Source: Saprospirales bacterium (GTDB taxonomy: Bacteria > Bacteroidota > Bacteroidia > Chitinophagales > Saprospiraceae). Taken from it: a stretch of DNA of 64,000 bases. The notes under the pieces are model-generated. The model worked only from the letters and a program-made list of their open reading frames with translations. It was not told the origin of the DNA and ran no database searches. This document shows, piece after piece, positions 6,766-26,295 of this stretch. Both the position numbers and the translations under genes were made by a program. Numbering within the stretch: position 1 is the first letter of the stretch; the number at the start of each line of letters is the position of its first letter. The stretch is from positions 1-64,000 of the forward strand of contig REEI01000128.1 in NCBI GenBank assembly GCA_007695145.1. The letters run 5' to 3'.

Positions 6766-9570
6766 TCACCTGATCACCGTCAGCGAACTCTTAATAGTCA
6801 ACCCGTACACCCTGAAAACATAAAAATAAACTCCTCCGGGATAGCCCTTTGCATCCCAGTCGTTTTGGTAATTCCTGCTGTGGTATATCTGCTCGCCCCA
6901 GCGATTGTAAATCCAAAGCTCTGAGCCCTCTACCGGCTCATCCGAAAACTGAAGAAACCGATTGGTAGGTTGATCCGGTGTGATCACACTGGTTGGTATG
7001 ATGTCCTGAAGTTCGCTGTTGCTCAAGTAAATGAATGCCTCCCTACAATTATCACAATTGGGATAGCATATGCGGTATCTTATGGGCAGCACTTCCACAA
7101 AGTTACCACTGACCGCAAAGGATATGTTGCCGCTCTCATCGTATTCCAAACCCACAATCAGTTCTGAATTCGAGCTGACCGCACTGAGAAAGTAGGGTGC
7201 TGAGAGCTGATTGTGCTGCAATACATTCACTGTCTGACGTTCGTATCTCTGCAATTCAAGATAAATGTCTTCGAGCATATACTCGCAGTCTTCCTCACAG
7301 GGCGGACCTTCCTGAAGCACTACCGAGGGAATGTCTTCATTGGTGCAGCCCCTTGTATCGCGTACCCGCAGTAGATAGACCCCTGGAGATAAGGGGCCGG
7401 CCAGTGGATTGCCGGAAAAGTTCCCCTCCTGATCAAAGGAGTACGTATAAGGCGGCATCCCTCCGGTGACATTGGTGATTTCGATAAATCCCTGCTCTCC
7501 TTCACACAATATGGAGTCCACTACAAAATCAAAAGACGGCAGTGGAAAGATATTCACCTCTACTTCTGTGCGGAATTCACAACCACCCAGAGTGGCCAGT
7601 AGCTCGTAAGTGCCGGAGTACTCCACACCCGCACTTTCTATCAGGGGATTTTTTTCTTCGCTGTAAAAACCAGCCGGGCCATACCATATGTAAGTTTCCA
7701 GGCTGTCGGGTCCGGCCGTGAGTTGCAGTTCGCCGCCGGCGCAGAAGCCACTTTGGGCAGTGGCGGTCAATTCCAGATCAGGAGATTCCTGCTCTACCAG
7801 TACAGAATCAATAGAAGCACAGCCATTTTCACTATTGGTTATTTCCAGGAAATACCAACCTGCGGCATCTACTTCGATGGAGGTGCTGTCCGGTGGGGAC
7901 AGTATGTTGCCATCTGGGGTTGACCATAGGTAGTTGTAAGAAGGGCCCTGGGAGGAGGAGCTGCCGTCTAGCCAAACGGAGGCTTGATCACACCCGATCT
8001 CCGAATCTACCTCAATGACTATCTCTGGCAATTCTTCATCGCTTTCAACAAAAAGGGAGTCAAAAGCTGCACAACCATTCTGCATATTGATCACTTCTAA
8101 AAAATACCAGCCCTCCGCATTCACTTCTATTGCCGAGCTGTCGGTTGCACTCAGGATATTTCCTTCACTTGTACTCCAGTGATATTCAAATTCTGAACCT
8201 AGGGAAGAGGAGCTGCCGTCTAACCAAACTGTGGTCTGATTACATCCAATAATCGACTCTACTTCAAGGACCAATTCATGTACGTCTTCATGTTTTTTAA
8301 CAAAAACCGAGTCCAATCCCCAACATCCGTTTTCTTCATTGAGTACCTCAAAAAAATACCAGCCCTCAGTATTAACCTCAATCGCAGTGCTGTCTGGAGC
8401 ACTTAATATATTTCCTTCTATTGTACTCCAATTGTATGTAAGGTCTGAGCTTTGGGGTGAAATACTCTCATCTAACCATATACTGCCTTCTCCACAAAGT
8501 GGGGCAGACTGAGATAATAATACATCAATTATGGCATTGATTTCTATTATAGTATCTATAGTAATGCACTCAGCATCAATAAGTATAGTGTGAATTCCCG
8601 GTTGCATAACACTGAAAAAGGGTAAACTGTCCCAGTTTTCACCGCTATCTCTTGAAAACCTAACAGGACCTGAAGAACTGGTATCGACATGTATGCTTAC
8701 CGTAACATCCCCATTGTCTTTACATAAGTGTCCATTTATTTCAATGCTATCCAGTTTAATTTCATAGTTGCTAAGAAAGGGATCTACGTAATCTCCATAG
8801 AGAACTTTAACCTCATCAGGGGATAGGGCATAATCGAAAATATCCAAGTCGTCTATTGCACCATAAAATGGATACCAACTAGCAGTGCTTGTTCGACTGC
8901 CCATGATTCCGATATACATATCCTCCTGATTGGCTCTTGTGAAGTCCACTTGATCAATTACTCTCTTCTCAAACAAACGCGAATTGAGATAGAATTTCAT
9001 TTTGGTATTTTCTACGATAAACACATAATGAATCCACTCGCATTGGTCCACGCATCGGACGATAAAGTTTTCACTAAAGTTTGTTGCATGACTTGCAATT
9101 TGATTGGTGTTTGCAAATCTACTCCTAGTACTCCCTTCTTCTGTTAATCTTCTATTTAGCCAGATACCAGGTGGTACAGAAATTCCATCACCCGCTTTGG
9201 AGAAAAAAACATGATTCCCAGTTTGCGATAGTCTGCCTGAGCCGTCCATTCCATCAAAATCACATTGTTTTAACCAAACAGATATCGAAAATGCGGTATC
9301 GAGCTGTAGTGAAGAATGATTGGGTACTCTTATCCAATTCCTGTTGAGGAACCCACCAAACTCATACGCACTATTCGGATTCCCAAAGCGATCCTCAGTC
9401 AATACCGGAGGGTTATTCCCTTCGAGTATCCCATGATTGCCATTGCCGCTTGCATCCTCTGCATTTCCATTGAAAGGATAGGATGCTATTGGGTTTTGGG
9501 AGTTTAAACTTCCACAAAACAGTAAAATTACTAAATAAAATAAAACCAATTTCATAACATAATTTTTCAT
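6766..9570 (-). CDS. LamG (ConA-like) domain surface protein with three Ig/PKD-like repeats and T9SS type B (gliding motility-associated) C-terminal domain
   Basis: N-term IASYPFNGNAEDASGNGNHGILEG...AFSISVWLKQ (LamG); three GCxQxxVWLDGSSSSxGxxxxYxWST repeats; C-term WIYNRWGEQIYHSRNYQNDWDAKGYPGGVYFYVFRVYGLTIKSSLTVIR. Confidence 0.9.
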   Translation of the reverse strand: MKNYVMKLVLFYLVILLFCGSLNSQNPIASYPFNGNAEDASGNGNHGILEGNNPPVLTEDRFGNPNSAYEFGGFLNRNWIRVPNHSSLQLDTAFSISVWLKQCDFDGMDGSGRLSQTGNHVFFSKAGDGISVPPGIWLNRRLTEEGSTRSRFANTNQIASHATNFSENFIVRCVDQCEWIHYVFIVENTKMKFYLNSRLFEKRVIDQVDFTRANQEDMYIGIMGSRTSTASWYPFYGAIDDLDIFDYALSPDEVKVLYGDYVDPFLSNYEIKLDSIEINGHLCKDNGDVTVSIHVDTSSSGPVRFSRDSGENWDSLPFFSVMQPGIHTILIDAECITIDTIIEINAIIDVLLSQSAPLCGEGSIWLDESISPQSSDLTYNWSTIEGNILSAPDSTAIEVNTEGWYFFEVLNEENGCWGLDSVFVKKHEDVHELVLEVESIIGCNQTTVWLDGSSSSLGSEFEYHWSTSEGNILSATDSSAIEVNAEGWYFLEVINMQNGCAAFDSLFVESDEELPEIVIEVDSEIGCDQASVWLDGSSSSQGPSYNYLWSTPDGNILSPPDSTSIEVDAAGWYFLEITNSENGCASIDSVLVEQESPDLELTATAQSGFCAGGELQLTAGPDSLETYIWYGPAGFYSEEKNPLIESAGVEYSGTYELLATLGGCEFRTEVEVNIFPLPSFDFVVDSILCEGEQGFIEITNVTGGMPPYTYSFDQEGNFSGNPLAGPLSPGVYLLRVRDTRGCTNEDIPSVVLQEGPPCEEDCEYMLEDIYLELQRYERQTVNVLQHNQLSAPYFLSAVSSNSELIVGLEYDESGNISFAVSGNFVEVLPIRYRICYPNCDNCREAFIYLSNSELQDIIPTSVITPDQPTNRFLQFSDEPVEGSELWIYNRWGEQIYHSRNYQNDWDAKGYPGGVYFYVFRVYGLTIKSSLTVIR

Positions 9571-9573
9571 ATC

Positions 9574-11189
9574 CTACCCCCTCCTCAAATCTATCGTCCC
9601 CTGTTTAATAATTCCGTATTGCCTGTATTCCAACACTACAAAATAGGTGCCCTGCGGAAGTCCTTCGCCATTGCTGCTTTGGCCGCGCCAGTTGTTTTCG
9701 ATGTCCCTCTGTGGATAGACCTTGTTTCCCAAGCGGTTGAAGACGATGAGTTCAGCCGGACCGCAGTATTCCAGGCCTTGTTTGTGTTCGCTGTCGTTGA
9801 TTCCGTCGTTGTTGGGGGTAAAGGCGTTGTGCAGGTCTGCGTTGATCGCTTCGCAGGGAATAATGACTTCCAGTTGTAAGGTGTGGTAACCTGGCAGCCC
9901 GTGCTATCGGTCACCCAAGCTTTGTAGTTGAAGGTCCCGCGAAAGGTGATTTCGACCTCAGGACAATCTGCATAGTTGAACAAAAGAGCAGGTTCCCATT
10001 GGGAATTGGAATAGGTAGGAGACAAGTTGGGTTGGATGTTTTCCCCCTCCATGGCAGAGTATAAACCCTGAAGCTCGATCAGCGGTAATTGATACACCCT
10101 CAAATCCAGGTAGTTGGTGCTGTCGCAGTCGTCTTGATTGATGAAATCGTAAAAGTAAAATCCGATCTCGGAGAGTTGGTTGTTCAAAAAGTCGTAAGTT
10201 TCTCCCCAGGAGATATGAACCTTTTTCTCTATCTCGTATAGGGGAATAAGTCTAAGATAAATGCAGTCTATCTGAAAGGGTTCTCCAGCCAGTTGGGTGC
10301 TGTTGCAGTATTTTCCTACTTCGCTGACATAAAAACTGAAAAGCTCATCTTCCTCTCCTTCGCATATCATAAGTGAGGATTCATTTAATAGTGTATCGCG
10401 GGTGCCGAACAAGGTGGTGGAGGTTATTGAGAGACAACCTTTATCATTGCGGGTTTGGACACCTAGCTGCCACTGCTCAAAATCGATCGGTATGATCAGG
10501 TTTCCCCCTTCCTGATTCACACAAAATTCGCTTATATTTTCAGACCAGTCATAATTTTTCCCACCGCTGAAGTTCAAAAGGATGGTATCTCCTACGCAGA
10601 CTTCCACGCTTTCCGGCAGCCCTCCTATTTCAAAAGTGGTTAAAAAGTTGACCTCAATTTCGGAGACGGGGCGGCAAACTGGATTTTCTGCTAAGAGAAT
10701 GAAGGTGAATGGCACTTCGATCAGCATCTCCGGATTGGTGATGTCTGTTGCACTCAATCGATCCTCACTGTTTTGCCATTCGTATCTCAATCCCAATTCC
10801 AATTGAATATCGATAATGGATGTGCTCCCATTGCATTGATGCACTTCAACGGGAAACTGATCGGTTTGATATTCGGGATCGTGATGGACAGTACCTGGTG
10901 GATAGGTATCTGTGAAATTGATTGCGCCTATACAAACACTGTAACAGCCATCTCTGCTCCAGCACTCCATGCAGTTTTTATCTAAATTGCCCATTGTAAG
11001 CCCCGGTTGGGGAGAGGCGTTGGTATTGCGTTGAGCGGAAGTCATCCTCGGAGGTACAAATCCCTTTTCTGTAGATTTTACTTCCAGCATGGCAGAGGAT
11101 TCAGGGGTGGTGGTTCCTAATCCAACTTGGGTCTTTACGGTCTCTGCTACTAGGAAATAAATTGCCAATTCTGTTACAATCTTTTTCAT
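9574..11189 (-). pseudogene. Frameshifted surface protein; T9SS type B C-terminal domain is intact in another frame
   Basis: N-term VGLGTTTPESSAMLEVKSTEKGFVPPRMTSAQRN. Annotated ORF ends in out-of-frame low-complexity sequence (KRSTQTCTTPLPPTTTESTTANTNKAW). The alternative minus-strand frame from about 9882 to stop 9574 reads TLQLEVIIPCEAINADLHNAFTPNNDGINDSEHKQGLEYCGPAELIVFNRLGNKVYPQRDIENNWRGQSSNGEGLPQGTYFVVLEYRQYGIIKQGTIDLRRG*. Confidence 0.82.
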
Positions 11190-11282
11190 TGTCCTTGCTT
11201 CTTTTACCGCTTCATTCTCTTTGAGGCGAAGGTGGTCTTAATTGTTTTGACCAGTCTAACGCCTATTAAAACAATGTGTCAT

Positions 11283-11290
11283 CAAATATA
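11283..11290 (-). promoter_or_regulatory. Putative Bacteroidota -7 element TATATTTG upstream of the 9574-11189 gene
   Basis: caaatata on + strand = TATATTTG on -, about 94 nt upstream of the start; same octamer in the paralogous region at 19514-19521. Confidence 0.45.
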
Positions 11291-11525
11291 CAACTTCCTA
11301 TAAATCCCCTAACAACCAAAGCCACGAAACACTAGATAAAAACCATTAAAAACTGCAATGTACACATGAAACCCGAAAAAAAGGAAAATGTACGAGCCCC
11401 AACACGATCAATCCGAAAATTCTATAAACAGGTCCTCACTAGCATAATAAAAATACATAAGAGGGGTGATTTACAGGCATTACTCTGCTTTATACACCGA
11501 ATCCTGCGATTCGTACAGATAGGGT

Positions 11526-11555
11526 GTTTAGGTAGAAGGGCTGCGGTTACATTTG
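11526..11555 (+). promoter_or_regulatory. Putative promoter of MORN gene 1 (TTTA...TACATTTG)
   Basis: TACATTTG at 11548-11555 fits TAnnTTTG; spacing and flanks are conserved with 20124-20151 upstream of the paralogous MORN gene. Confidence 0.5.
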
Positions 11556-11586
11556 TAACATCATTTAACAATTAAAACTAAATATC

Positions 11587-12027
11587 ATGAAAACTTTAAG
11601 CATTCTTTTTTTGACCATCACCCTTTTCTTTTCTCTACAAAATCTAAACGCTCAATGTTTGGAGGGAAACTGTTATAACGGCAAAGGAGTGTTCCTTGAA
11701 GAGGAGGGCCAGTTTATACATTCCGGATACTATAAAGATGGTGTTCCTCATGGTAAAGGAATATCTATATTTATGGACGGTACGATGTTATACGCCAACT
11801 ACCAAAAGGGGATGATAAGCGGGAAAGCTGTATTATTATTTCCGGATGGTGCCAAATGGTATTTCACCCTTGAATACGGACAAGTAGGAGGTGAAACTTA
11901 CATTATGGATGTCAACGGGAAACTTGTAGCAATTAAATACTACGAGTATGGAGAATGGACAGACCTATGGATAGCGCACAGACAGGAAGAATATTTTAAT
12001 AGTGAAATTTTGCCTTACTTTTTCTGA
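11587..12027 (+). CDS. Secreted MORN-repeat protein (copy 1)
   Basis: Signal peptide; CLEGNCYNGKGVFL, YKDGVPHGKGISIFMDGTMLYANYQKGMISGKAVLLFPDGAKW repeats; paralogous to 20183-20689. Confidence 0.85.
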   Translation: MKTLSILFLTITLFFSLQNLNAQCLEGNCYNGKGVFLEEEGQFIHSGYYKDGVPHGKGISIFMDGTMLYANYQKGMISGKAVLLFPDGAKWYFTLEYGQVGGETYIMDVNGKLVAIKYYEYGEWTDLWIAHRQEEYFNSEILPYFF

Positions 12028-12095
12028 TCCTACCAGAAATGGTAACCCTATTGCCGGGCATCCAATCCCTCAATAGAATACCCTACTAAATTTTA

Positions 12096-12131
12096 AGCAC
12101 TTCCCAATATATCCCGGGAAGTGCTTTTTTA
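12096..12131 (+). terminator. Rho-independent terminator
   Basis: 10-bp perfect stem agcacttccc/gggaagtgct followed by a T run. Confidence 0.8.
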
Positions 12132-12475
12132 GTGGATGCAGAGTGCTTCATATACTCAACCAACATCAAGACATGGTTCAATTCCCGGTTTTGCAAATGG
12201 AATTGGCCTTAAAAGAACGGTGCTGCTTGTGGAGGTAGAATTGCCCATTAGCTTGAATTCCCGATGTCGTATTACCGACGAAATCGACTCGTACAATATA
12301 CGGTGCAATTGATACAGAATTCCCTGTTTTCGGGGATTCAGCCCTTAGCTTTACATCAGAATTAAGACTTACTCATAAGCTGAAATTGTATAGGGTAGCA
12401 GAATATAGAAGTCATTGGATTTGGTCATGTAAAAAGTAAACCAATAAAATTATTTAACCATTAAACTTATTAGTC

Positions 12476-13570
12476 ATGTTGAAAAATCTATTTATCGTTT
12501 TAGGTCTGTTGGTAGTAACATCCTTCATTTTTTCATGTAAACCAACTTACGAGGTCGATACCTTTGAAATCATCCGACCCGGCTGGGATATGATCAATAT
12601 CAACACATCCTATAAAAAGTCCACCACTTTTGGGGAGGAGTTTTCATACCCCAAAAGCGAGAAGGTGATTATCCGGGATAGCCGGAGTCAAATCCTCTAT
12701 GAAGGACCTGCTATTTCTAATATTGCCATACCGGATAAAGAACTTTTGAGCGAGGAGAAAATAAGTGTTCGATTGATCGCATTTTTTGACGATGCTCAAG
12801 TCTCTTCCGAGAAACACTTTTTCGCTTCCCCCAAGAGATTTACCATGAACCACAATGTAAAGTATCCCAATGGTGGATTGAACCACCTGGACTATGAAAT
12901 CAACTTCAATATTTACCGAAAAAAAATCAATTCAACAGAGGAAGAGAAAATTTTATCAGGGGCTGCCCTTCCCTTTAACATAAATATGTCAGTTAATGGT
13001 GGAAGTAACATTTCATTTGCCTCTGATAGAAGGAGAGACCGGATGGATTTAAGGAGGTCCTCCGCAGGAAGCCAATTTGTAAGTTCACTGGTGTCAGAAC
13101 TGGAGAAGAATAACAAAGCGGATGTTCATTTTGCGGTTGAAATGGACTATCGGGGGAGAAAAATCAAGTTCCAACCCATTGAAAAAACCATCCAAAACAA
13201 AAGCGACTCAGAAAAGAGAATGGAAGCTGAAAGACTTGCAGGTCAATTGGGCGCTCAAAAAATGAATTCCATTTCACCAAATACGGGCAATTCTCTTCAG
13301 GTAGTTGTCGATCACATTAATGTTGAGTATGATCTGATAGAGCACAGGTACTCAATTCCAATGGAAATACAGTGGCGAGCTCGCACCTGGATTGCTGGTC
13401 CGACTAGTGATATGATTATACGGGGAACCCTGAATGTAAATGAAGATGGCAGTAATCCGGCATTTGATATCGACTGGCATAGTCCTGCAGTAGGGCAGGC
13501 GGCCCAAAACAATTCGGTTTTTAATTCCTCTATGAAGGTACTTGAGAATGTTCTGCAAAGTGGATTGTAG
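12476..13570 (+). CDS. Predicted lipoprotein of unknown function
   Basis: N-terminal hydrophobic segment with lipobox-like SFIFSC; no family recognised. Confidence 0.75.
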   Translation: MLKNLFIVLGLLVVTSFIFSCKPTYEVDTFEIIRPGWDMININTSYKKSTTFGEEFSYPKSEKVIIRDSRSQILYEGPAISNIAIPDKELLSEEKISVRLIAFFDDAQVSSEKHFFASPKRFTMNHNVKYPNGGLNHLDYEINFNIYRKKINSTEEEKILSGAALPFNINMSVNGGSNISFASDRRRDRMDLRRSSAGSQFVSSLVSELEKNNKADVHFAVEMDYRGRKIKFQPIEKTIQNKSDSEKRMEAERLAGQLGAQKMNSISPNTGNSLQVVVDHINVEYDLIEHRYSIPMEIQWRARTWIAGPTSDMIIRGTLNVNEDGSNPAFDIDWHSPAVGQAAQNNSVFNSSMKVLENVLQSGL

Positions 13571-13598
13571 AAAGCTGTAATATGTTGAATCCAACTAT

Positions 13599-13638
13599 CC
13601 CGGAATGGAACTTTTGGTTCTGTTCCGGGTCTCTTTTT
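13599..13638 (+). terminator. Rho-independent terminator
   Basis: Stem cccggaatggaac/gttctgttccggg with internal mismatch, then tctcttttttta. Confidence 0.7.
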
Positions 13639-14126
13639 TAAATGAAGTCCATCCATTATGGTGGCTTCGCTATAATAACCACATAAGCGTATTAGTGGAG
13701 TATCTGTAATTCAATCCTATCTTTGATAAAATTGCGATAACGGGGGCATTAGATTGTCGCTTGGTGAAACCGTTCCTGACCAAATTTAATATTCAGCATT
13801 AAGTTTCCCAGGCTTGATATAGTGTTAGCAATGACACTGGAGGGAAGGGGTTCATTTGCAATCATTACATTTAGTTCTTTCCCGGTTCAATCCATCTAAA
13901 AAGCGGAAAGAGAAGTGTTTCCTTGGTGGTTAGTCTGGATGTTTGTTTTGTCATTGCAAATTAGTGAGAAGGAAGGCCGTATTTGTTCAATGTGGATTGC
14001 ACCGGACTCATTCATTTTAAGTCAAATAGAAGGTCAAAAATTGGGGTTAATTCTTTAAATGAAGAGGTTGGTACAAAAAAATACCCTTTTCATACATACT
14101 TTAAAGGGTCTAATAGATAAACAGCC

Positions 14127-14134
14127 TACTTTTG
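14127..14134 (+). promoter_or_regulatory. Putative -7 element TACTTTTG upstream of GPGG protein 1
   Basis: Matches TAnnTTTG, about 27 nt upstream of the ATG. Confidence 0.4.
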
Positions 14135-14160
14135 AATCATAATCAATAAAAAATAATATT

Positions 14161-15132
14161 ATGACAAATTCAGATCAAACAAGTGTAAGCGTAAAGCCAA
14201 ATGACAAAAAAATCCATGTGCCTGTAACAAAAAGTCTGGCAGAATCCCTAAAGGAGAATAGAGGCAAAGTCGGTCTGGCAGCCGGCGTCCTGGCTACCGT
14301 TGGATTTCTCTCAGCCCAAAAAGTGGTTGGTCAAAATTTAACTGCAGATGATGCCAATGCAGAGGTTATTGAGGCCTCAGAAAAGGTAATGGTAAGCAAT
14401 GAGGGTTCATATCTCAGTATCGACCCCGGTGACAGTATTCTACAATCCCCCGAGGGAGCTAGTTTCAGCGAGGCATTTAAGCACGCAAGGGAAGAACTCG
14501 GGCCAGGCGGAATATTTGAGTGGAAAGGCAAACACTACAATACCTTTTATGCTGAAGAGTATTCCGCTCTGACTACCGATCAAAAAAAGGATTATGCTGC
14601 CAGGGTGAGCGAGGCTTTAAAAGAGGAAAACTCTTCCATAATTGAAAGCAAGGAGGGACAATTGGTAGAGGTTGAATACAACGCTGACAATATCCTTTCC
14701 ATAAAGGTTATTGATCAGGAGGTGATTGACAATATGCAGGGAATACAAGTGGATCTGACCGGTGATGGAGAAGCCAACATCAGCTTCCAAAACTCTGGTA
14801 AAAAGGAAGAAGAAAATACTGAAAAAGTTGAAGAAATTGCTGAAACCGCCACAGAAGTCACCTCCGATGAAAACGACATAAAGATCGAAAATGGTGACGA
14901 GTCAAAAGCTGCAGACGAGTTGGAAACCAAAGATGAAATCAATGAGATTAAAATCGAATCTGAAGAAAAGGTCCTGAAAGAAGTAGAAGATACAGAGGAA
15001 GATGAAGTTGTAATGGATTTTGATGATCTACCGGACAGCGAGGAGGGTCACGATGTTTCTTACAGTGAAACCGACATAGAAGATTTCGAGGAATATCCCG
15101 ATATAGATGAATGGAATGAAGAACTGCTTTAA
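14161..15132 (+). CDS. Uncharacterised acidic protein with predicted N-terminal TM helix and GPGGIFEW domain (paralog 1)
   Basis: ENRGKVGLAAGVLATVGFL plus SFSEAFKHAREELGPGGIFEWKGKHYNTFYAEEYSALTTDQKKDYAARVSE; very acidic C-terminal tail; clear paralog at 22316-23221. Confidence 0.85.
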   Translation: MTNSDQTSVSVKPNDKKIHVPVTKSLAESLKENRGKVGLAAGVLATVGFLSAQKVVGQNLTADDANAEVIEASEKVMVSNEGSYLSIDPGDSILQSPEGASFSEAFKHAREELGPGGIFEWKGKHYNTFYAEEYSALTTDQKKDYAARVSEALKEENSSIIESKEGQLVEVEYNADNILSIKVIDQEVIDNMQGIQVDLTGDGEANISFQNSGKKEEENTEKVEEIAETATEVTSDENDIKIENGDESKAADELETKDEINEIKIESEEKVLKEVEDTEEDEVVMDFDDLPDSEEGHDVSYSETDIEDFEEYPDIDEWNEELL

Positions 15133-15160
15133 TGGAGAACAGTAGCATTAATTTTACAAT

Positions 15161-15192
15161 ACCCGAAGTGAGTAACCACTTCGGGTATTTTT
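15161..15192 (+). terminator. Rho-independent terminator
   Basis: 10-bp stem acccgaagtg/cacttcgggt followed by atttttgttt. Confidence 0.75.
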
Positions 15193-15255
15193 GTTTCCAC
15201 AATAACATCGAAAAGAATTTGCCAATTTTTGTCTTTATGTCGAAAATATCCATTC

Positions 15256-18200
15256 TCACCTAATCACTGTCAGCGAACTCTTAATGGTCAACCCATAAAC
15301 CCTGAAAACATAGAAATATACTCCTCCGGGGAAGCCCCCGGCCCCCCAGTCGTTTTGATAATCCCTACTGTGATAAATCTGCTCGCCCCAGCGATTGTAA
15401 ATCCAAAGCTCCGAACCCTCAACCGGCTCATCCGAAAACTGAAGGAAGCGATTGGTGAGTTGATCCGGGGTGATCATACTCGTTGGCACAATATTTTGAA
15501 GCTCGCGATTGCTGAGATAAATGGTGGCCTCCCCGCAATTGTCGCAATCGGAATGGCAGATGCGGTACCTGATCGACAGCTCCTCCACAAAGTTTCCTCT
15601 GACCGAAAAGGATATATTGCCGTACGCATCGTATTCCAGGCCCACAAGCAATTCGGAATTCGAGCTGACCGCGCTGAGATAGTAGGGAGAAGAGAGCTGA
15701 TTGTGCTGCAATACATTCACTTTCTGACGATCGTATCTCTGCAGTTCAATATAAATGTCTTCCGGCATGTAATCGCAGTATTCCTCACAGGGCGGTCCTT
15801 CATGAAGCACCACCGAGGGAATGTCTTCATTGGTACAGCCCCTTGTATCCCGCACCCGCAGTAGATAAACCCCGGGAAATAAAGGGCCGGCCAATGGATT
15901 GCCGGAAAAGTTGCCGGCCTGATCAAAGGAATACGTATAGGGTGGCAGTCCTCCGCTGACATTGGTGATTTCGATAAAACCCTGCTCCCCCTCGCACACA
16001 ATGGAGTCCACCACAAAATCAAAAGAGGGCAGAGGAAAGATTTCCACCTCCACTTCTGTGTGGAATTCACAAGTACCCAGGCTGGCCACCAGCTCATAGG
16101 TGCCGGAGTATTCCACACCCGCGCTTTCTATCAGGGGATTGATTTCTTCACTGTAAAAACCCGCCGGGCCGTGCCAAGTGTATGTGTCCAGGCTGTCGGG
16201 CCCGGCAGTAAGTTGTAGTTCACCTCCGGCGCAGAAGCCGCTTTGGGCAATGGCGGTCAATTCAAGATCGGGAGATTGCTGCGCTACCAGTACCGAATCC
16301 ATAGCGACACAGCCATTTTCACTATTGGTTATTTGCAGAAAATACCAGCCCGTGGCACCTACTTCGATGGTGGTGCTGTCCGGTGATGAGAGAATGCTTC
16401 CATCTGTGGTTGACCAGAGATAGGCGTAAGAAGGGCCCTGGGAGGAGGAGCTGCCGTCTAATTTTACAGAGGTTTGTTCGCACCCAAACTCCATACTTGC
16501 CTCAATAATTACTACAGGCACATCTACATCCCTATCAACAAATACAGAGTCAAAACCTGTACAACCATTATCCTGATTGATCACCTCAAAATAATACCAT
16601 CCCTTTGAATTTATCAAAATCCATATACTGTCCGGAGCACTCAAGATATTTCCTTCATTGGTACTCCAGTGGTATTCAAATTCTGAGCCCTGAGAAGAAG
16701 AACTGCCGTCCAACCAAATGGTTGTTTGTTCACAGTCGAGCTGCATACCTGCCTCAATTACCACTTCCGGCAATTCATCATTCTTTTCAACAAAAGCAGA
16801 ATCTAATCCCGTACACCCGTTCTGCTGATTGATCACCTCAAAAAAATACCAACCCGCGGCATTTACCTCTATTGCGATGCTGTCCGGAATACTCAAGATA
16901 TTTCCTTCATTGGTACTCCAGTGGTATTCAAATTCTGAGCCCTGAGAAGAAGAACTGCCGTCCAACCAAACGGTTGTTTGTTCACACCCAATCTCCGATT
17001 CCACCTCTATGATCACCTCAGGTAATTCTTCATTCCTTTCAACGAAAAAGGAGTCCAATCCTGTACACCCGTTTTGCTGATTGATTACTTCAAAAAAATA
17101 CCAGCCATCCGAATCCACCTCAATTGATAAGCTGTCCAGAGCACTCAGGATATTCCCTTCAATTGTACTCCAGTGATATTTAAATTCAGGACCTTGAGAG
17201 GAATTGCTCCCGTCCAACCAAATGGTGCCCTGTTCGCACCCGAGCTCCGATTCTACTTCAATTGTTATTTTCGGCAACGCATTATTTTTTTCAACAAACA
17301 CAGAGTCCAAACCCATACATCCGTTCTGCTGATTGAGCACTTCAAAAAAATACCAGCCACCTGAATCCACCTCAATTGCCGAGCTGTCCGGAGCACTCAA
17401 GATATTTCCTTCAATTGTACTCCAGTGATATTCAAATTCAGGACCTTGAGAGGAATTGCTCCCGTCCAACCAAATGGTGCCCTGTTCGCACCCGAGCTCC
17501 GATTCTACTTCAATTGTTATTTTCGGCAACGCATTATTTTTTTCAACAAACACAGAGTCCAAACCCATACATCCGTTCTGCTGATTGAGCACTTCAAAAA
17601 AATACCAGCCACCTGAATCCACCTCAATTGCCGAGCTGTCCGGAGCACTCAAGATATTTCCTTCATTCGTACTCCACTGGAATTCCAATTCAGGACCCTC
17701 AGAGGAAGGGCTCCCATCCAACCAAACTGTGGCCTGTTCGCATCCAAGAATGGATCCCGGCTCAATTGTAACTTCCGGCAATTCTTTATCTATTGCAACG
17801 AATACAGAGTCTAAATAAGCACAACCGTTTTCTTCATCATTCACCTCCAAATAATACCAGCCTGCTGTATCTACCTGTACGGATGAACTATCCGGGGAGG
17901 ATATAATACTTCCATTGACAGTGGTCCATAAATAACTGGATTGTAAATCTTGAGAGCCATTATCGCTATTTAACCAAATGGAATTTAAATTACAATCTAA
18001 AGTAGCCGACTCCTCAATAGTCACTATAGGAATGTCAAAATTCTCCTGAATAATTACAGAATCCATGACTACACAAAGTGTATTTTCATCGGTAACAGTT
18101 GCAAAATAAATCCCCCCTGCATTGATCCAAATTGACTCCAGGTCGGGAGGGCTAATTATATTTCCATCGGGGCTATACCAATCAACCTGAAAATTGTTAA

Positions 18201-19224
18201 TATTGGAAACTTCTACTATCAGTTCTATTTCTTCCTGTAAGCAATTTACAACTTCCTCACCAATAATTTCAATTTCAAAAGGGTCGCACCCACATTCTTC
18301 ATTAAAATAATCACCCAAAATTTCCCAACCAAAATTCTGCTCTAAAATATCCCTTGCAAATGACCCCAACAGTGAGTACTCCAGACCTTCGGCATGAAGA
18401 AATAGTCCGTTATTCAAAGAATTAAGGGAAGCCCAACCATCTAAGGTTGCACTATAATTTTCGCAACTGAGTCCAGAGAGCTCCAGCATGTGTTCTACCG
18501 TAATTACATTTTCAATGTTCCATAAACCTAAATTTTGGTCAAAGGATACCGCACCACTAAACATATACCTCATGTACACAACATTGCCTACATCCCAATT
18601 ACTAATATCGCCATTAAAACTTAGAGCATTCATAAACATTCTCGTCATCCATACGACATTGCTCATGTCCCAGGTGCCTATATCAGAATCAAATTCCTCG
18701 CACTCCAAAAACATATATGCAGTTGAGGTAACGTCGTTCAAATTGGGAATATCGGTTGCTGTAGAAGTCATATTCTTACAAAAAGAAAAGGCTCTTTCAA
18801 AATTACTCCATTGAATATCACCCCATTGATTTACTGATAGAAGTTTTTCAGGATCACCAAAAGAATTGAAAGCAGATTGTCCAAATTGAATCCTGTGAAA
18901 ATCACCACTAATACTTACCTGATAGATGCCCGGGTGAGGAAAAGTAATTGTAGTGAAGCCATTACCCGTGGCGGTGCCATTGTTGGAGGGATTGCCCACC
19001 TCTTCCCATTCGATAGTGTAGTTACTCCCGTGGCCGGGTATTGTGATTTGATTGTCTTCCGAGGGACCCGGGAGGTCGGTTTTCCAGGTGGTAATAAACG
19101 GTTGTTGGGAATGAACAGATAGCGGCATGGCCAATAAAAAAATGGATACAAGGAATAAGAACCCATGGTACGGCAGTCGATTAATCTGAGTATTTATTTT
19201 GAGATATAAGCAAGAAATCGGCAT
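15256..19224 (-). CDS. BspA-like (DUF285) surface protein with about eight Ig/PKD-like repeats and T9SS type B C-terminal domain
   Basis: DMSNVVWMTRMFMNALSFNGDISNWDVGNVVYMRYMFSGAVSFDQNLGLWNIENV (DUF285 pattern); tandem about 84-aa repeats; C-term nearly identical to that of 6766-9570. Confidence 0.9.
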   Translation of the reverse strand: MPISCLYLKINTQINRLPYHGFLFLVSIFLLAMPLSVHSQQPFITTWKTDLPGPSEDNQITIPGHGSNYTIEWEEVGNPSNNGTATGNGFTTITFPHPGIYQVSISGDFHRIQFGQSAFNSFGDPEKLLSVNQWGDIQWSNFERAFSFCKNMTSTATDIPNLNDVTSTAYMFLECEEFDSDIGTWDMSNVVWMTRMFMNALSFNGDISNWDVGNVVYMRYMFSGAVSFDQNLGLWNIENVITVEHMLELSGLSCENYSATLDGWASLNSLNNGLFLHAEGLEYSLLGSFARDILEQNFGWEILGDYFNEECGCDPFEIEIIGEEVVNCLQEEIELIVEVSNINNFQVDWYSPDGNIISPPDLESIWINAGGIYFATVTDENTLCVVMDSVIIQENFDIPIVTIEESATLDCNLNSIWLNSDNGSQDLQSSYLWTTVNGSIISSPDSSSVQVDTAGWYYLEVNDEENGCAYLDSVFVAIDKELPEVTIEPGSILGCEQATVWLDGSPSSEGPELEFQWSTNEGNILSAPDSSAIEVDSGGWYFFEVLNQQNGCMGLDSVFVEKNNALPKITIEVESELGCEQGTIWLDGSNSSQGPEFEYHWSTIEGNILSAPDSSAIEVDSGGWYFFEVLNQQNGCMGLDSVFVEKNNALPKITIEVESELGCEQGTIWLDGSNSSQGPEFKYHWSTIEGNILSALDSLSIEVDSDGWYFFEVINQQNGCTGLDSFFVERNEELPEVIIEVESEIGCEQTTVWLDGSSSSQGSEFEYHWSTNEGNILSIPDSIAIEVNAAGWYFFEVINQQNGCTGLDSAFVEKNDELPEVVIEAGMQLDCEQTTIWLDGSSSSQGSEFEYHWSTNEGNILSAPDSIWILINSKGWYYFEVINQDNGCTGFDSVFVDRDVDVPVVIIEASMEFGCEQTSVKLDGSSSSQGPSYAYLWSTTDGSILSSPDSTTIEVGATGWYFLQITNSENGCVAMDSVLVAQQSPDLELTAIAQSGFCAGGELQLTAGPDSLDTYTWHGPAGFYSEEINPLIESAGVEYSGTYELVASLGTCEFHTEVEVEIFPLPSFDFVVDSIVCEGEQGFIEITNVSGGLPPYTYSFDQAGNFSGNPLAGPLFPGVYLLRVRDTRGCTNEDIPSVVLHEGPPCEEYCDYMPEDIYIELQRYDRQKVNVLQHNQLSSPYYLSAVSSNSELLVGLEYDAYGNISFSVRGNFVEELSIRYRICHSDCDNCGEATIYLSNRELQNIVPTSMITPDQLTNRFLQFSDEPVEGSELWIYNRWGEQIYHSRDYQNDWGAGGFPGGVYFYVFRVYGLTIKSSLTVIR
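17182..17665 (-). repeat. Tandem 252-bp repeat units with a 232-bp identical block (17182-17413 = 17434-17665)
   Basis: Direct comparison; reflected in identical antisense ORF translations at 17173-17364 and 17425-17616. Confidence 0.95.
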
Positions 19225-19513
19225 GGCCCTGATACTTGTTTTTTGGCAGCATTTATGGTTGTATCAACCGAGATGCTGTCTTTTTAAAGACGTTCACTAA
19301 GTATTTTATCCTATATTGGTCCATTTCGACTTTCACATTCTATTGGAAATGACAACAAAATTCAATTCTCTGGTTACTTGGGAAAACAATGCTATACGTA
19401 GCTACCGAATCAGCTTACAGAAACCTGTCCACTGTCGCAGTTTCTTAGGTCCCGGCATTGAAGAATTATTGCTATTTCTCATGACAGCACCTACTTATTT
19501 ATAATTATGAAGT

Positions 19514-19544
19514 CAAATATACAACTTTCATTTCCATTGCCAAA
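19514..19544 (-). promoter_or_regulatory. Putative Bacteroidota promoter TTTG-N19-TATATTTG upstream of 15256-19224
   Basis: On + strand, caaatata (19514-19521) and caaa (19541-19544) with 19-nt spacing. Confidence 0.5.
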
Positions 19545-19670
19545 ATTGTCAACCATGAAATGTTCATTCAGACCCATGAAAAGCTGCTTTTAAAGTACGA
19601 AACCCGAAAAGTAGAATATGTGCAATCTTGACCATTAAATTCTACCAATATCCACATCAAACCTAAGGGA

Positions 19671-19820
19671 TTGCTCAATAATAAGTTCCTTAGAATAGCC
19701 GAAGATGTTTAGTGTGCTAATAAGGCAAAAGACGCAAGCATAGTGGAGCTACGGCGAGGCCTTTTAATGCAGTTAGCGTGCAAAAGAACGAAGCTAAATG
19801 AGTAAGTTATTGTTGAGCAA
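19671..19820. mobile_element. Possible MITE or IS-end remnant with imperfect 22-bp terminal inverted repeats
   Basis: ttgctcaataataagttcctta (19671-19692) vs reverse complement of 19799-19820 ttgctcaacaataacttactca, 18/22 identical; no ORF inside. Confidence 0.45.
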
Positions 19821-20123
19821 GACCTAAAATTAGGTTCCAAGTATTTACAATGTATTATTTACCGTTTGTTTAGTCGGGATTGCCTCATAGGATCGAACCC
19901 ATGTAATTACTATTTTTTCGTTACCGAAAAACGCGGTATTGGCTATTTGATTGCTGAGCGAAGCCCTGGAGGCTAGCTAGGTAGTATCAAAGCAAAGTTA
20001 CATGACACTTATGCAGATAGTGTAAAAAAGAGAGATAAGGGCTTTTGTCCTCGAAAGAAGGCTTGACTTGATACTTGCATCGCATTTATACATCGAATCC
20101 TTCGACCCATACATTTACGGTGA

Positions 20124-20151
20124 TTGGTAAAAAGAGCTACGGATACATTTG
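20124..20151 (+). promoter_or_regulatory. Putative promoter of MORN gene 2 (TTGG...TACATTTG)
   Basis: TACATTTG at 20144-20151; conserved with 11526-11555. Confidence 0.5.
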
Positions 20152-20182
20152 TAGTAACGTTTAACAATTAAAACAAAATTTC

Positions 20183-20689
20183 ATGAAAAACTTTAACATT
20201 ATTATTTTGGCTACAACCCTTATCTTTTACTGTCAAAATCTGACCGGCCAATGTTTGGAAGGGGATTGTCTAAACGGCAAGGGAGTTATGTTTGTGGAAA
20301 ACTCAATTGACGAATTCAGTTACCTGAATGATGACTTTAATATTGGGAAATTTAGGGAAAGGGAATCCTTGAAAGAATTATTTTTATATGCCGGATATTT
20401 TAGAAATGGGATTGCACATGGTAAGGGAATAATAATATATGAGAATGGAACGATGAATTACGGGTATTGGGTAGCTGGTTTCCAGCAGGGGAAAGCAATA
20501 TTTAAGAATCCGGATGGGACAAAGCTCTACTGCAATATTGAAAATGGAATACTTCAAGGGGAATCCTACCTCAAAGACTCGAGTGGAAATATAATTTCTT
20601 ATTTGTATTGGAAGGACGACGAATTGACCTATATTGAAGCAGCCTCAGGGTATGAAAGCCCAAACCAACAGAGAACCATTAGTTTGTAA
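20183..20689 (+). CDS. Secreted MORN-repeat protein (copy 2)
   Basis: CLEGDCLNGKGVMFVEN..., YFRNGIAHGKGIIIYENGTMNYGYWVAGFQQGKAIFKNPDGTKLY; paralog of 11587-12027. Confidence 0.85.
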   Translation: MKNFNIIILATTLIFYCQNLTGQCLEGDCLNGKGVMFVENSIDEFSYLNDDFNIGKFRERESLKELFLYAGYFRNGIAHGKGIIIYENGTMNYGYWVAGFQQGKAIFKNPDGTKLYCNIENGILQGESYLKDSSGNIISYLYWKDDELTYIEAASGYESPNQQRTISL

Positions 20690-20762
20690 TTCATAGGATA
20701 TCAAATGAGTTTTGGTCAATTCCTTTACATCCCGGGGTTATTGCTATGATTATTTAGTTCTG

Positions 20763-20792
20763 CCTCCTGAAACCATTCGGGAGGTTTTTTTT
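20763..20792 (+). terminator. Rho-independent terminator
   Basis: cctcctgaa/ttcgggagg stem followed by tttttttt. Confidence 0.75.
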
Positions 20793-20836
20793 ATTCAGAG
20801 ATTTAATTAATTTTACCCTTCATTTACCTTTACTCT

Positions 20837-21547
20837 TTGAATAAATTGAAGATGTTAAACCTTATATTTTACAAAGAAAGAGAAAGTCTAAAGCCAAAGA
20901 TTGCAGATATTCATTTCTCTACCCGAAAGAGACTCAAGTTGCTCTTTCCAACCCATCCGTTAGAGCTCGAAACCTTAATCCAGAAAAAAGAAACAAGAGG
21001 TTTGCTGTGTTATTTTGTTCCTGATCCTAGCAATGAACAGATTTCCTGGTTAAAGTATCACAGCCAATACGATCCTGATTTAAAGATTGCATTGTTTGCA
21101 AATGAGCAGTTTTCTCTAAAAGCCTGGCAGGCAGGCCTGATTCACTTTGAGCCTTATCCCATAATGTCTTCACGCATCATTTTTACGTTTAGAAAATTTT
21201 GTAAACAAACAGAAGAGTTGGGCTCCAGTTATTCTGTACGCAGTCCCGAGGGAGTGTTTAATCTCAAAACGCGCGATATTCATTACATACATGCAGCAGG
21301 GAATTACACCCTTATCCATATGCGAGACGATAAAACTATGGTGCTAACCCGTCAATTGGGAACTTATGCTGACCTCCTTGAGACCGCACCTATGTTTGAA
21401 AGGGTTCACCGCTCTTTAATTCTCAACAAATCAGCCGTACGGGAATGTAGGGATCAAAAATTGCACTTTTTCCACAGTAGAAAACCACTGGCAATCTCAG
21501 CTGCTTTAGAATCAAAATTGAAGAAAATATTGAGTTTTTATGGATGA
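20837..21547 (+). CDS. LytTR-family DNA-binding regulator with degenerate receiver-like N-terminus
   Basis: C-term FNLKTRDIHYIHAAGNYTLIHMRDDKTMVLTRQLGTYADLLE...FERVHRSLILNKSAV is LytTR-like. Confidence 0.85.
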   Translation: MNKLKMLNLIFYKERESLKPKIADIHFSTRKRLKLLFPTHPLELETLIQKKETRGLLCYFVPDPSNEQISWLKYHSQYDPDLKIALFANEQFSLKAWQAGLIHFEPYPIMSSRIIFTFRKFCKQTEELGSSYSVRSPEGVFNLKTRDIHYIHAAGNYTLIHMRDDKTMVLTRQLGTYADLLETAPMFERVHRSLILNKSAVRECRDQKLHFFHSRKPLAISAALESKLKKILSFYG

Positions 21548-22232
21548 AAAGATCAATTTAACCATCGGTCGGGCTGCAAACTGCGAGCTTGTTTTAACTG
21601 ATAAATCGATAAGTAGGATTCATGCCAAAGCCGAAATATACTACTACGATAAAATATTTTTGGTAGATCAGAATTCTGCCAATGGAACTTTCGTCAACAA
21701 TAAACGAATTAAGAAAGCGCAGATCAAAACAACCGATAAGCTGAAATTTGGAGAATACATTCCGGACAATAAGTCCTTTTTTAAAGAGCTCTTCAATCGC
21801 TATAAGAGTAACAAAAATGACTTTTCCAGAGAATACGATCACATGTTAGAGCAGTTCGCCAAATACCAGAAAAAACTCGACGCCTTGCAAGACAATCCCA
21901 AAGGTCCTCTTTATTTAAAACTGGGACTGCTCGCCGGTTTTATAGGTTTTATGATTTTTTTTAGCGATAGGATAGATCAGCGATTTTTCTATCCCATGAT
22001 CATTGGAATAAGCGGGTTGACTCTGTTGGGTGGAATCTTTACCGGTTCAAGAGGAAATCGCAACAAAAAGATAGCGGAACTTAAAATGGATTATGACAGG
22101 GTGCTTCGATGCCCTAAGTGCAATACACCTTTTATAAGTAAACATCTGGTAATGGTTGAGAGAATGTCTGAGTGCAGCAATGACAACTGCAATGCATTGT
22201 ATAAGAAGGATAGGGAGGTTCGTACATTATAA
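21540..22232 (+). CDS. FHA domain protein with TM segments and C-terminal zinc ribbon
   Basis: INLTIGRAANCELVLTDKSISRIHAKAEI...DQNSANGTFVNNKRI; TM helices around LLAGFIGFMIFF; CPKCNT...CSNDNC. Overlaps the upstream gene by 8 nt. Confidence 0.88.
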   Translation: MDEKINLTIGRAANCELVLTDKSISRIHAKAEIYYYDKIFLVDQNSANGTFVNNKRIKKAQIKTTDKLKFGEYIPDNKSFFKELFNRYKSNKNDFSREYDHMLEQFAKYQKKLDALQDNPKGPLYLKLGLLAGFIGFMIFFSDRIDQRFFYPMIIGISGLTLLGGIFTGSRGNRNKKIAELKMDYDRVLRCPKCNTPFISKHLVMVERMSECSNDNCNALYKKDREVRTL

Positions 22233-22277
22233 TCCCGGGTTCATACAAACTCCGGCAAGTGATGACACTCTTCATGC

Positions 22278-22285
22278 TACATTTG
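22278..22285 (+). promoter_or_regulatory. Putative -7 element TACATTTG upstream of GPGG protein 2
   Basis: Matches TAnnTTTG, about 30 nt upstream of the ATG. Confidence 0.4.
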
Positions 22286-22315
22286 GACCATTGAAACAGC
22301 GATAATTAAACTATT

Positions 22316-23221
22316 ATGGATAATCAAGTACAGTCGAAAGACAATTTAAGCAAGAGAAATATCAATGTGCCCATAAAGGGCAAGTTGAGCAAGTTTCTCA
22401 CGGAGAATAGGGGTAAAATTGGGCTTGCAGCCGGGGTCCTTGCCACTACAACCTTTGTATCTGCTAAGAACTTCCAACCAATAAAAAAAGTTGAAGACAT
22501 CAATCCTGAGCTCGCTGTCCTTTCTGATGAAGAAATGTTGGAAGAGGATGGTACTTATTTGAGTATTGAGGTGGGGGAGACTATTTACTTGCCATCCGAT
22601 GGTTTAAGTTTTTCTGATGCCTTTACAGAAGCCAGGGAGAAAATGGGACCTGGAGGAATATTTGAATGGGAAGGCAAGCATTTCAACACCTATTTCGCTG
22701 AAGAATGGGAAGTATTGTCAAAAGACCAAAAAATGGAATTTGCAACCAGGGTCAGTGAAACAATCAGTGAAAAGGACTCAGGCATAGTCGAGGTTGAGGA
22801 TGGTAAGTTAATGACAACTGAGTTTAGCAGTGAAAACATTTTGAAATTGACCTTAGAAAACCCTGAGGTTAGGGAGAGCCTGGAAGCGGTTGAAATTGAT
22901 ATTGAAAATGAGAGTGGTGAAGAAATCAGTATTGAGGTAGATTTTATGATTAAGGAACCCTCATCACCGGAGGAAATCATGAACGCTAAAGATATTTTAA
23001 TCGTCGATTCCCGGGAGGAATATACTGCTGAGGAGTATGAACTCGAAAGTCCTGATGATGATTTCGGTTCTGAAGCTTTATCTTTAAAAGAAGAGGCGAC
23101 CGGACTAGAGTTTGATGATATTCCTGAAAAAAAGGAAGAGAAGAATTCTGAAGAGACAGACAATGAACAATTAGATGATCATAAGGACATTGATGAGTAC
23201 GATGAAAATCCTTTTTTTTAA
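22316..23221 (+). CDS. Uncharacterised acidic protein with predicted N-terminal TM helix and GPGGIFEW domain (paralog 2)
   Basis: ENRGKIGLAAGVLATTTFV plus SFSDAFTEAREKMGPGGIFEWEGKHFNTYFAEEWEVLSKDQKMEFATRVSE; acidic tail. Confidence 0.85.
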   Translation: MDNQVQSKDNLSKRNINVPIKGKLSKFLTENRGKIGLAAGVLATTTFVSAKNFQPIKKVEDINPELAVLSDEEMLEEDGTYLSIEVGETIYLPSDGLSFSDAFTEAREKMGPGGIFEWEGKHFNTYFAEEWEVLSKDQKMEFATRVSETISEKDSGIVEVEDGKLMTTEFSSENILKLTLENPEVRESLEAVEIDIENESGEEISIEVDFMIKEPSSPEEIMNAKDILIVDSREEYTAEEYELESPDDDFGSEALSLKEEATGLEFDDIPEKKEEKNSEETDNEQLDDHKDIDEYDENPFF

Positions 23222-23230
23222 ATCGATAGA

Positions 23231-23788
23231 ATGAAAAAGATTAGGCTTATTTGCCCACATTGTAAAAAGTATTCAAAGCTCAGTAATCCTGAAAGATTTT
23301 TCGGGAAAACCGTGGAATTCACCTGCGCCAATCCGGGTTGCAAGAAAAAGTTTGATCATTTCTTTCAAGAAAAAATGGTTGATGATCCCACCTTTCTCAC
23401 TCTGCATTCGACTACAAAAGTCCAGATGCAGTTAAGAGTAATGGACAATCAAGGAGACCTTGTAAAGATTCTCAACTTAAAACCGATCAATTACGTCCTG
23501 GGGAGGCAGCATTATACTGACATGGATTGTGAGACTATATTATTTGAAGATTCCTTCATATCGAGAAAACACTGTTTATTGCGTTACATAAAATCTTTGG
23601 CAAAGGATGACTTTAGGTTTGCCATTTCGGATCTAAACAGCACCAATAAAACATTTTTAAACAAAACCGAATTAAACCCGGAGGAAGAAATATATCTGGA
23701 TGATGGAGACATCATTAATATAGGGAGGCTGGAGATAGTCTACCGGGAGGTTTCGAATAATTTAAGCGATGAAAGTATTGAGTTTTAA
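23231..23788 (+). CDS. Zinc-ribbon plus FHA domain protein
   Basis: N-term CPHCKK...CANPGCKKKF; FHA-like YVLGRQHYTDMDCETILFEDSFISRKHCLLRY...DLNSTNKTFLNKTEL. Confidence 0.85.
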   Translation: MKKIRLICPHCKKYSKLSNPERFFGKTVEFTCANPGCKKKFDHFFQEKMVDDPTFLTLHSTTKVQMQLRVMDNQGDLVKILNLKPINYVLGRQHYTDMDCETILFEDSFISRKHCLLRYIKSLAKDDFRFAISDLNSTNKTFLNKTELNPEEEIYLDDGDIINIGRLEIVYREVSNNLSDESIEF

Positions 23789-24494
23789 CTTCCAAGGGAA
23801 GCGACCGAGTCAACAGGACCGGATCTGGATATCTGACACAAAGGACCTCTTTGTCATTTGCGATGGAGTAGGTGGAACAGGAGACGGAGCTGCTGCAAGT
23901 CAAATGGTGGTTGATTACTTTCAATTCCATATACAAAGTAATGCTTCCACTGATTTTCCCAGCCAGTTTCCCGGGTTTATGAGGCAATTATTGGAGATAT
24001 TGAGGGATCAGTCCGAAGTGAGGTACAAGAGCTTTTCTACAACTATAGCTCTCGCATATTTTGCGCAACCTTCGATCTATTTTTATCATCTTGGTGATTC
24101 GCGGATTTTCCACATGCAAAAATCGACCGGTCATTACTGGATTTCAAAAGATCATTCGGTCGTGCAGGATCTTTACGAAATCGGTGCTTTGAAAACTGAA
24201 GAGGAAATGAGGCAGCATCCTCTTAGAAACCGTATAACCAAAGCACTAAGCTCTGAACAGGTTCTCTCCGATGAGGAATTCGAATTCAGCAAAAGGACTG
24301 ATATTAAAGCGGGAGATCTGATTTTTATTTGTACTGATGGAGTGCTTGAAAATTACGACAATCAATCGATACTTGATTTATTTATGAGTTCTGGAAAGTC
24401 ACCTGAAGAGGCCTTTACAGGGATAGAGGAAACCAGCAAAACAAAAAGTAAAGATAACAGTAGCTGTGTATTGATAATGTTTGATGAAGAGTAA
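23769..24494 (+). CDS. PP2C-family Ser/Thr protein phosphatase
   Basis: FVICDGVGGTGDGAAAS, YFYHLGDSRIFHM, ISKDHSVVQDL, IFICTDGVLENYDN, KDNSSCVLIMF; overlaps the upstream FHA gene by 20 nt. Confidence 0.93.
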   Translation: MKVLSFNFQGKRPSQQDRIWISDTKDLFVICDGVGGTGDGAAASQMVVDYFQFHIQSNASTDFPSQFPGFMRQLLEILRDQSEVRYKSFSTTIALAYFAQPSIYFYHLGDSRIFHMQKSTGHYWISKDHSVVQDLYEIGALKTEEEMRQHPLRNRITKALSSEQVLSDEEFEFSKRTDIKAGDLIFICTDGVLENYDNQSILDLFMSSGKSPEEAFTGIEETSKTKSKDNSSCVLIMFDEE

Positions 24495-26274: not shown

Positions 26275-26295
26275 ATTGATGATTTTATCCAGTTT

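Follow-up and report, generated by a model that had tools for sequence, protein, structure and literature searches.

The window analyzed here, a 64,000-nucleotide stretch of contig REEI01000128.1 from a Saprospirales bacterium (GenBank assembly GCA_007695145.1), carries two genes for acidic membrane proteins (GPGG1 and GPGG2) that share an unannotated domain, the GPGG domain. GPGG2 lies in a compact run of same-strand genes encoding a LytTR regulator, two zinc-ribbon FHA proteins and a PP2C phosphatase (Table 1). The genes in this run (20837–24494) overlap or are spaced by 10–84 bp, and we designate it the core operon because its gene order matches the one conserved across loci in other genomes. 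The rest of the region holds a Hanks-type Ser/Thr kinase, a PorP/SprF-like protein, a second set of genes limited to MORN1, a putative lipoprotein gene and GPGG1 (the last two each followed by a terminator-like hairpin), and cargo genes of the type IX secretion system (T9SS). An earlier note on this DNA had read the interval 9574–24494 as two blocks of the same order and orientation, each with a T9SS cargo, a divergent MORN gene and a GPGG gene, and had proposed a conserved module that links a secreted giant surface protein to phospho-signaling. The open reading frames (ORFs) it described are present where and on the strands it placed them, except for the cargo gene at 9574–11189, which is not a single ORF.

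Table 1. Coordinates of the genes and other features of the GPGG region (positions in the window; TM, transmembrane segment; pThr, phosphothreonine).
Feature	Position	Strand	Basis and remarks
Hanks-type Ser/Thr kinase, ~1807 aa	296–5719	+	Pfam; motifs; predicted TM; genome search
PorP/SprF-like outer-membrane protein	5749–6741	+	Pfam; starts 29 bp past kinase
T9SS type-B cargo (LamG, Ig-like repeats, CHU_C)	6766–9570	-	Pfam; BLASTP; outside module proper
T9SS type-B cargo, frameshift near 9880, CHU_C in second frame	9574–11189	-	
MORN1 leader/promoter	11489–11586	+	78% identical to MORN2 leader
MORN1, MORN repeat and signal-peptide-like N-terminus	11587–12027	+	Pfam; paralogy
Putative lipoprotein, lipobox-like FSC	12476–13570	+	Terminator-like site 13599–13629
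GPGG1, acidic C-terminus, GPGG domain at ~aa 99–150	14161–15132	+	Terminator-like site 15158–15189
T9SS type-B cargo (DUF285, Ig-like repeats, CHU_C)	15256–19224	-	Pfam; outside module proper
MORN2 leader/promoter, paralogue of MORN1 leader	20076–20182	+	
MORN2	20183–20689	+	Terminator-like hairpin 20762–20785 downstream
LytTR transcription regulator, first gene of core operon; in-frame ATG at 20852	20837–21547	+	Pfam
FHA - 2 TM - C-terminal zinc ribbon	21540–22232	+	Pfam; pThr-pocket residues kept
GPGG2, core-operon GPGG protein	22316–23221	+	
Zinc ribbon - linker with conserved Thr54 - FHA	23231–23788	+	Pfam
PP2C phosphatase	23769–24494	+	Pfam; 20-bp overlap with zinc-ribbon FHA gene

The GPGG protein is the signature of a conserved, widespread and apparently undescribed signaling operon of the Bacteroidota. 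Profile searches recovered it from 8 of 101 relatives when the whole protein was used and, when the domain was run against 399 genomes spread over the phylum, from 6; both counts include the window's genome. Scanning 85,488 species genomes for the domain yielded 79 loci from other genomes, whose neighbors we scored with purpose-built profiles. Nearly all belong to the Bacteroidota; the one labeled Gammaproteobacteria and the one labeled Holophagaceae are metagenome bins that could be misassigned. FHA genes are present in 75 of these loci, followed in frequency by kinase (66), PP2C (64), caspase (42), LytTR (35), SUMF1 (20), MORN (18) and leucine-rich repeat (LRR, 17) genes. The association of GPGG with FHA and PP2C suggested by the earlier note thus recurs strongly. 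MORN also recurs, in a minority of loci, mostly as a C-terminal portion of the kinase, in one case joined to a caspase and otherwise as a separate gene; its enrichment is weaker and rests partly on a broadened profile. Many of these genes lie with GPGG in one same-strand run (FHA in 72, PP2C in 53, kinase in 49 and caspase in 38 of 79 loci, counting the window), in a largely constant order: LytTR, FHA (2 TM, zinc ribbon), GPGG, an optional caspase, zinc-ribbon FHA, PP2C and kinase. Most kinase-bearing relatives have about 1–3 kinases per genome, and by a rough estimate a kinase would fall within 8 kb of GPGG by chance in ~1% of loci. We found no description of the operon within open-licence papers, and one may exist elsewhere.

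The loci vary around this core. Tandem GPGG copies are recurrent (L027, L035–L038, L045, L047, and L098). A second recurrent set of neighbors, the unannotated cluster 9 and cluster 10 proteins, follows the kinase or FHA gene in L032, L065, L084, L087 and the Prevotella-type loci L046, L074, L075, and L097, joined in the first four by a PEGA-domain protein. In Bacteroides-like loci (L045, L047, L048, L052, L058, L067, L083, and others) a BspA-type LRR protein and a small cluster 8 protein are inserted. A Runella rosea plasmid (NZ_CP030851.1, 1–6775) carries the order vWA-FHA-GPGG-FHA-PP2C-caspase, and the module can therefore be plasmid-borne.

GPGG proteins begin with a short N-terminal tail, followed by a single Gly-rich TM segment, an acidic linker, the GPGG domain, often Asp-rich repeats and an acidic C-terminus. 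The N-terminal side of the TM segment is more positively charged than the C-terminal side in 85 of 89 proteins; the predicted topology places the N-terminus inside and the GPGG domain outside the cytoplasm. The domain itself is predicted to fold as a helix, a β-hairpin and two helices (predicted local distance difference test, pLDDT, ~90 for the core in a first model and 81 on average in a second). It had no significant match in Pfam, NCBIfam, PHROGs or the Protein Data Bank (PDB), with weak viral matches only. The cytoplasmic tails are rich in an acidic-Thr-hydrophobic motif resembling FHA ligands ([DEN]T[VILFYQRM][VILFY]): they contain 36 sites, compared with a mean of 3.4 and a maximum of 10 in 1000 shuffles, and the density of the motif (8.9 per 1000 aa) exceeds that of other ORFs (1.0–1.3).

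GPGG-like sequences also surfaced in viral data. The best structural match to the domain in BFVD (A0A516LAI5, E = 1.9e-3, 44% over 39 columns) is a lead only. A scan of viral sequences returned one match, at 4704–5132 of a 56-kb viral contig (IMGVR_UViG_3300030329_003406), where a membrane protein of 142 aa bears a GPGG-like domain standing alone. We rejected MT838606.1, labeled 'Bacteriophage sp.', as evidence for a phage homolog, its content being a fragment of the bacterial module. Positions 1617–4387 of that record hold a Bacteroidales LytTR-FHA-GPGG-FHA fragment, and the linker of its zinc-ribbon FHA protein repeats GETQYV, GETRYV, and DDTIL motifs.

The remaining core proteins have the features expected of threonine phosphorylation. 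The window kinase (Pkinase, E = 5e-43) has the HRDI and DFG motifs and continues after the kinase domain with TPRs, a TM segment near residues 1219–1237 and a C-terminal SUMF1/FGE-sulfatase-like domain; in other loci the extra domain is MORN or TPR. Its N-terminal signature (RYAYDIALDRLGSGAF) resembles those of module kinases (RYKYDPTKDRLGEGGF in L032 and RYRYDPANDILGEGAF in L035). It is the only Pkinase match in the genome over the family cut-off (one other was sub-threshold, at 24.7 bits). Other large Pkinase proteins of relatives (1.1–2.1 kaa) were considered as counterparts and set aside, as none has PorP, SUMF1 or module neighbors. The phosphatase matches PP2C_2 (E = 4e-12), and the residues of the pThr pocket (G-R, S-R-x-H, and N-x-T) are conserved in the two FHA families. 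The linker of the zinc-ribbon FHA protein has a single well-conserved position in an otherwise variable stretch, T54 (79% of 67 proteins), which stands N-terminal to the FHA domain like the conserved Thr of GarA/OdhI-type proteins. Judged by its sequence, the locus thus has the parts of a kinase/PP2C/FHA phospho-threonine module, namely a Hanks kinase, a PP2C phosphatase and FHA domains with pThr-binding residues, and phospho-dependent binding is putative.

How the second MORN/GPGG set arose can be read from the paralogues. As the earlier note had claimed, MORN1 and MORN2 (38% identity, E = 2e-32), GPGG1 and GPGG2 (37% identity, E = 1e-58) and the regions upstream of the MORN genes (159 bp at 78.6%, of which ~98 bp are non-coding; E = 3e-31) are each paralogous. 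The non-coding leader is better conserved than the encoded proteins and has just two copies in a genome-wide search. Both leaders contain TACATTTG (at 11548 and 20144), a putative promoter element that fits the Bacteroidota -7 consensus, TAnnTTTG; in an exact scan, matches to TTTG-spacer-TAnnTTTG were not above chance. Phylogenetic analysis of 75 GPGG domains, with few columns and unresolved deeper branches, joins GPGG1 and GPGG2 as a sister pair (support 100/92) separate from their nearest relative (L031, 99/93), and we therefore place the duplication in the lineage of the window. Within the genome, GPGG genes and close MORN relatives occur only in the window. The paired blocks held up for MORN, GPGG and the MORN leader but not for the cargo, and the first block lacks LytTR, both FHA genes and PP2C; they consequently represent a partial duplication rather than two copies of the module. 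In short, the MORN leader and the MORN and GPGG part have been duplicated in this genome and now stand amid CHU_C cargo genes. In module locus L063, a distant relative of the block 1 lipoprotein (26% over 112 aa) is encoded beside MORN. Downstream of the core operon, at 25426–26631, a methyltransferase with an ArsR-like regulator upstream looks by eye like an arsenite methyltransferase unit, the domain search covering the methyltransferase.

The cargo genes have a different history. The two claimed as paralogues (9574–11189 and 15256–19224) are unrelated (best BLASTP E = 0.32), and an indel near 9880 shifts the CHU_C C-terminus of the former into another frame. The true paralogue of the latter (78% over 576 aa by BLASTP) is 6766–9570, which means that the window has three CHU_C cargos, one of them beyond the interval of the earlier note. 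No CHU_C cargo occurs in the 79 module loci from other genomes, even with an iterated profile, nor does PorP, using a profile that recovers most PorP paralogues of the window's genome. The predicted co-occurrence with type-B cargo therefore failed, and what stands of the proposed module is the phospho-signaling around GPGG (FHA, PP2C, and, in a minority, MORN), not its link to a giant surface protein. We accordingly rejected the cargo as a module component. The other T9SS genes adjoining the module are a PorP gene in the relative L101 and type-A cargos after PP2C in Runella. A conserved module with a giant type-B surface protein as its output, and MORN and GPGG as accessories, is quite improbable on these grounds. 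It would explain why three CHU_C cargos and PorP/SprF lie amid the module genes, the PorP neighboring the L101 module, the Runella cargos and the partly duplicated appearance of the cargo/MORN divergent intergenic region, where shorter collinear matches are weak (15/15 bp; 33 bp at 79%). It is contradicted by the lack of homology between the two cargos and of CHU_C in other loci, and by the 41 CHU_C matches in the genome, several clustered elsewhere and some beside PorP at other sites, a known pairing (PMC9143113).

L101, from another family of the same taxonomic order, suggests how the window was assembled. Its PorP, MORN, LytTR, FHA, GPGG, FHA and PP2C genes follow one another on a single strand without intervening cargo, and the contig ends in PorP. 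The window PorP is 73% identical to that of L101, the LytTR orthologues are 56% identical, and L101 retains part of the MORN leader. The simplest reading is that the cargos and the second MORN/GPGG set were inserted between PorP and MORN2 in the lineage of the window. As a separate observation, the module genes of L113, a metagenome-assembled genome (MAG) of the same genus as the window, are 77–87% identical to those of L101, a MAG of a different family, and those of the window are ~36–56% identical to them, pointing to transfer or mis-binning. PorP-like proteins anchor cargos with type-B C-terminal domains (PMC9143113), and PorP starts right after the kinase gene on the same strand and in L101 lies next to MORN and the core operon. 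Such adjacency raises a further scenario, lineage-specific recruitment, in which the operon would control the surface display of type-B adhesins via PorP/SprF. We regard it as unlikely: PorP is absent from the 79 other loci, the window cargos are on the opposite strand, and the L101 contig stops before any cargo there could be read. That signaling, MORN and T9SS genes are simply unrelated neighbors in this genome is hardly credible, despite the mixed strands and the fact that the lipoprotein, GPGG1 and MORN2 genes are each followed by a terminator-like site of their own. The 79 loci contradict it for the core, and the MORN gene adjacent in L101, the MORN-lipoprotein pair of L063 and the common MORN leader argue the same way; it is largely refuted for the core genes and could still hold for the cargos.

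Caspases are a candidate output in other genomes. Most of those in the module loci have signal-peptide-like N-termini, and they keep the His motif (43 of 43) and the D-x-C motif (39 of 43). In some loci, such as L047, the caspase gene overlaps the GPGG gene. One module locus (L023, 5478–6701; L112, 7050–8273) encodes a fusion of MORN and caspase whose N-terminus is signal-peptide-like. Caspases are recurrent in bacterial conflict systems (PMC7159879), and those of the module could indicate a conflict or cell-death system in which kinase/FHA signaling releases the exported protease. We find this rather improbable, as about half of the loci and the window module have no caspase, the PADLOC matches are generic kinase and PP2C domains only rather than a catalogued anti-phage defense system, and an exported caspase is unlike the cytoplasmic effectors of abortive infection.

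On balance, we lean toward reading the locus as a membrane-centered phospho-threonine signaling system in which GPGG serves as a transmembrane scaffold linking kinase/PP2C/FHA signaling to envelope proteins. The operon, the predicted topology, the enriched motifs and the intact FHA pockets support this reading; the kinase substrates, FHA ligands and envelope outputs are inferred. The kinase would sense an envelope signal and phosphorylate Thr residues of both the GPGG tail and the FHA-protein linker. Two FHA proteins, one membrane-bound and one soluble with self-inhibition, would then bind the phosphosites, so that the scaffold is built or released, and PP2C would reset it. GPGG may carry this state over the inner membrane to envelope partners, such as the caspase or LRR proteins of other loci and the MORN proteins, lipoprotein and perhaps PorP of the window, with LytTR regulating transcription. 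The more specific proposal, that phosphorylated GPGG tails recruit the two FHA proteins and the extracytoplasmic domain controls exported caspase-like proteases or MORN/PorP surface proteins, is tentative. Several findings weigh against the scaffold reading. Only 31 of the 89 GPGG proteins carry the strict Thr motif, and the window tails lack it (GPGG1 has a loose version, SDQTSVSV, and GPGG2 has none); its excess in the zinc-ribbon FHA linker is modest (22 of 67 proteins compared with a shuffle mean of 7.2). Furthermore, the kinase gene is ~15 kb from the core operon, its adjacency to PorP cannot be checked in L101, MORN is confined to a minority of loci, and no caspase is encoded in the window module.

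The locus defines a domain family without annotation and, in a phylum whose Hanks-kinase signaling seems little described, a kinase-phosphatase-FHA operon that recurs. Carriers include gut Bacteroides and Prevotella as well as the culturable hosts Runella, Larkinella, and Spirosoma, and the operon yields concrete, testable predictions for phospho-Thr sites and partners. It may connect cytoplasmic Thr phosphorylation with exported caspase-like proteins. If GPGG is indeed a scaffold, it would provide the Bacteroidota with a kinase-to-envelope relay; as the locus has the only clear Ser/Thr kinase of the genome, the pathway would be without obvious redundancy.

PppA is the PP2C phosphatase of the threonine-phosphorylation pathway of the type VI secretion system (T6SS), encoded in one locus with the kinase and the FHA reader. 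That pathway likewise has a Hanks kinase (PpkA) and an FHA reader (Fha) and controls an envelope machine (PMC12607579). The GPGG operon adds two zinc-ribbon FHA proteins, the GPGG membrane protein, LytTR and an exported caspase, and no T6SS structural genes were recognized among the matches listed for the Pfam-scanned part of the neighbors. Kinase, PP2C, FHA and caspase domains also share neighborhoods in the conflict systems described by Kaur et al. (2020; PMC7159879); these include vWA-MoxR, GTPase and EACC1-caspase systems, and that paper has no mention of MORN and, among those systems, no FHA-GPGG-FHA operon. As for PorP and CHU_C, the window genes are typical of type-B cargos with a PorP/SprF anchor (PMC9143113) and are no conserved part of the GPGG module. 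Another likeness is to ArnA/ArnB of Sulfolobus, in which a zinc finger-FHA protein reads a phosphorylated partner and, with kinases, controls a surface structure (PMC6509490). The partner there is a vWA protein, whereas the GPGG operon offers a transmembrane GPGG protein and an additional FHA-2TM protein. The actinobacterial GarA/OdhI proteins (PMC5448819, PMC2784874) share the Thr upstream of the FHA domain, a candidate intramolecular switch; the FHA protein of the GPGG operon differs in the zinc ribbon in front and in its membrane partners, and autoinhibition is only putative here. The likenesses to the T6SS kinase-Fha pathway, ArnA/ArnB, and GarA/OdhI are best described as functional analogies rather than memberships.

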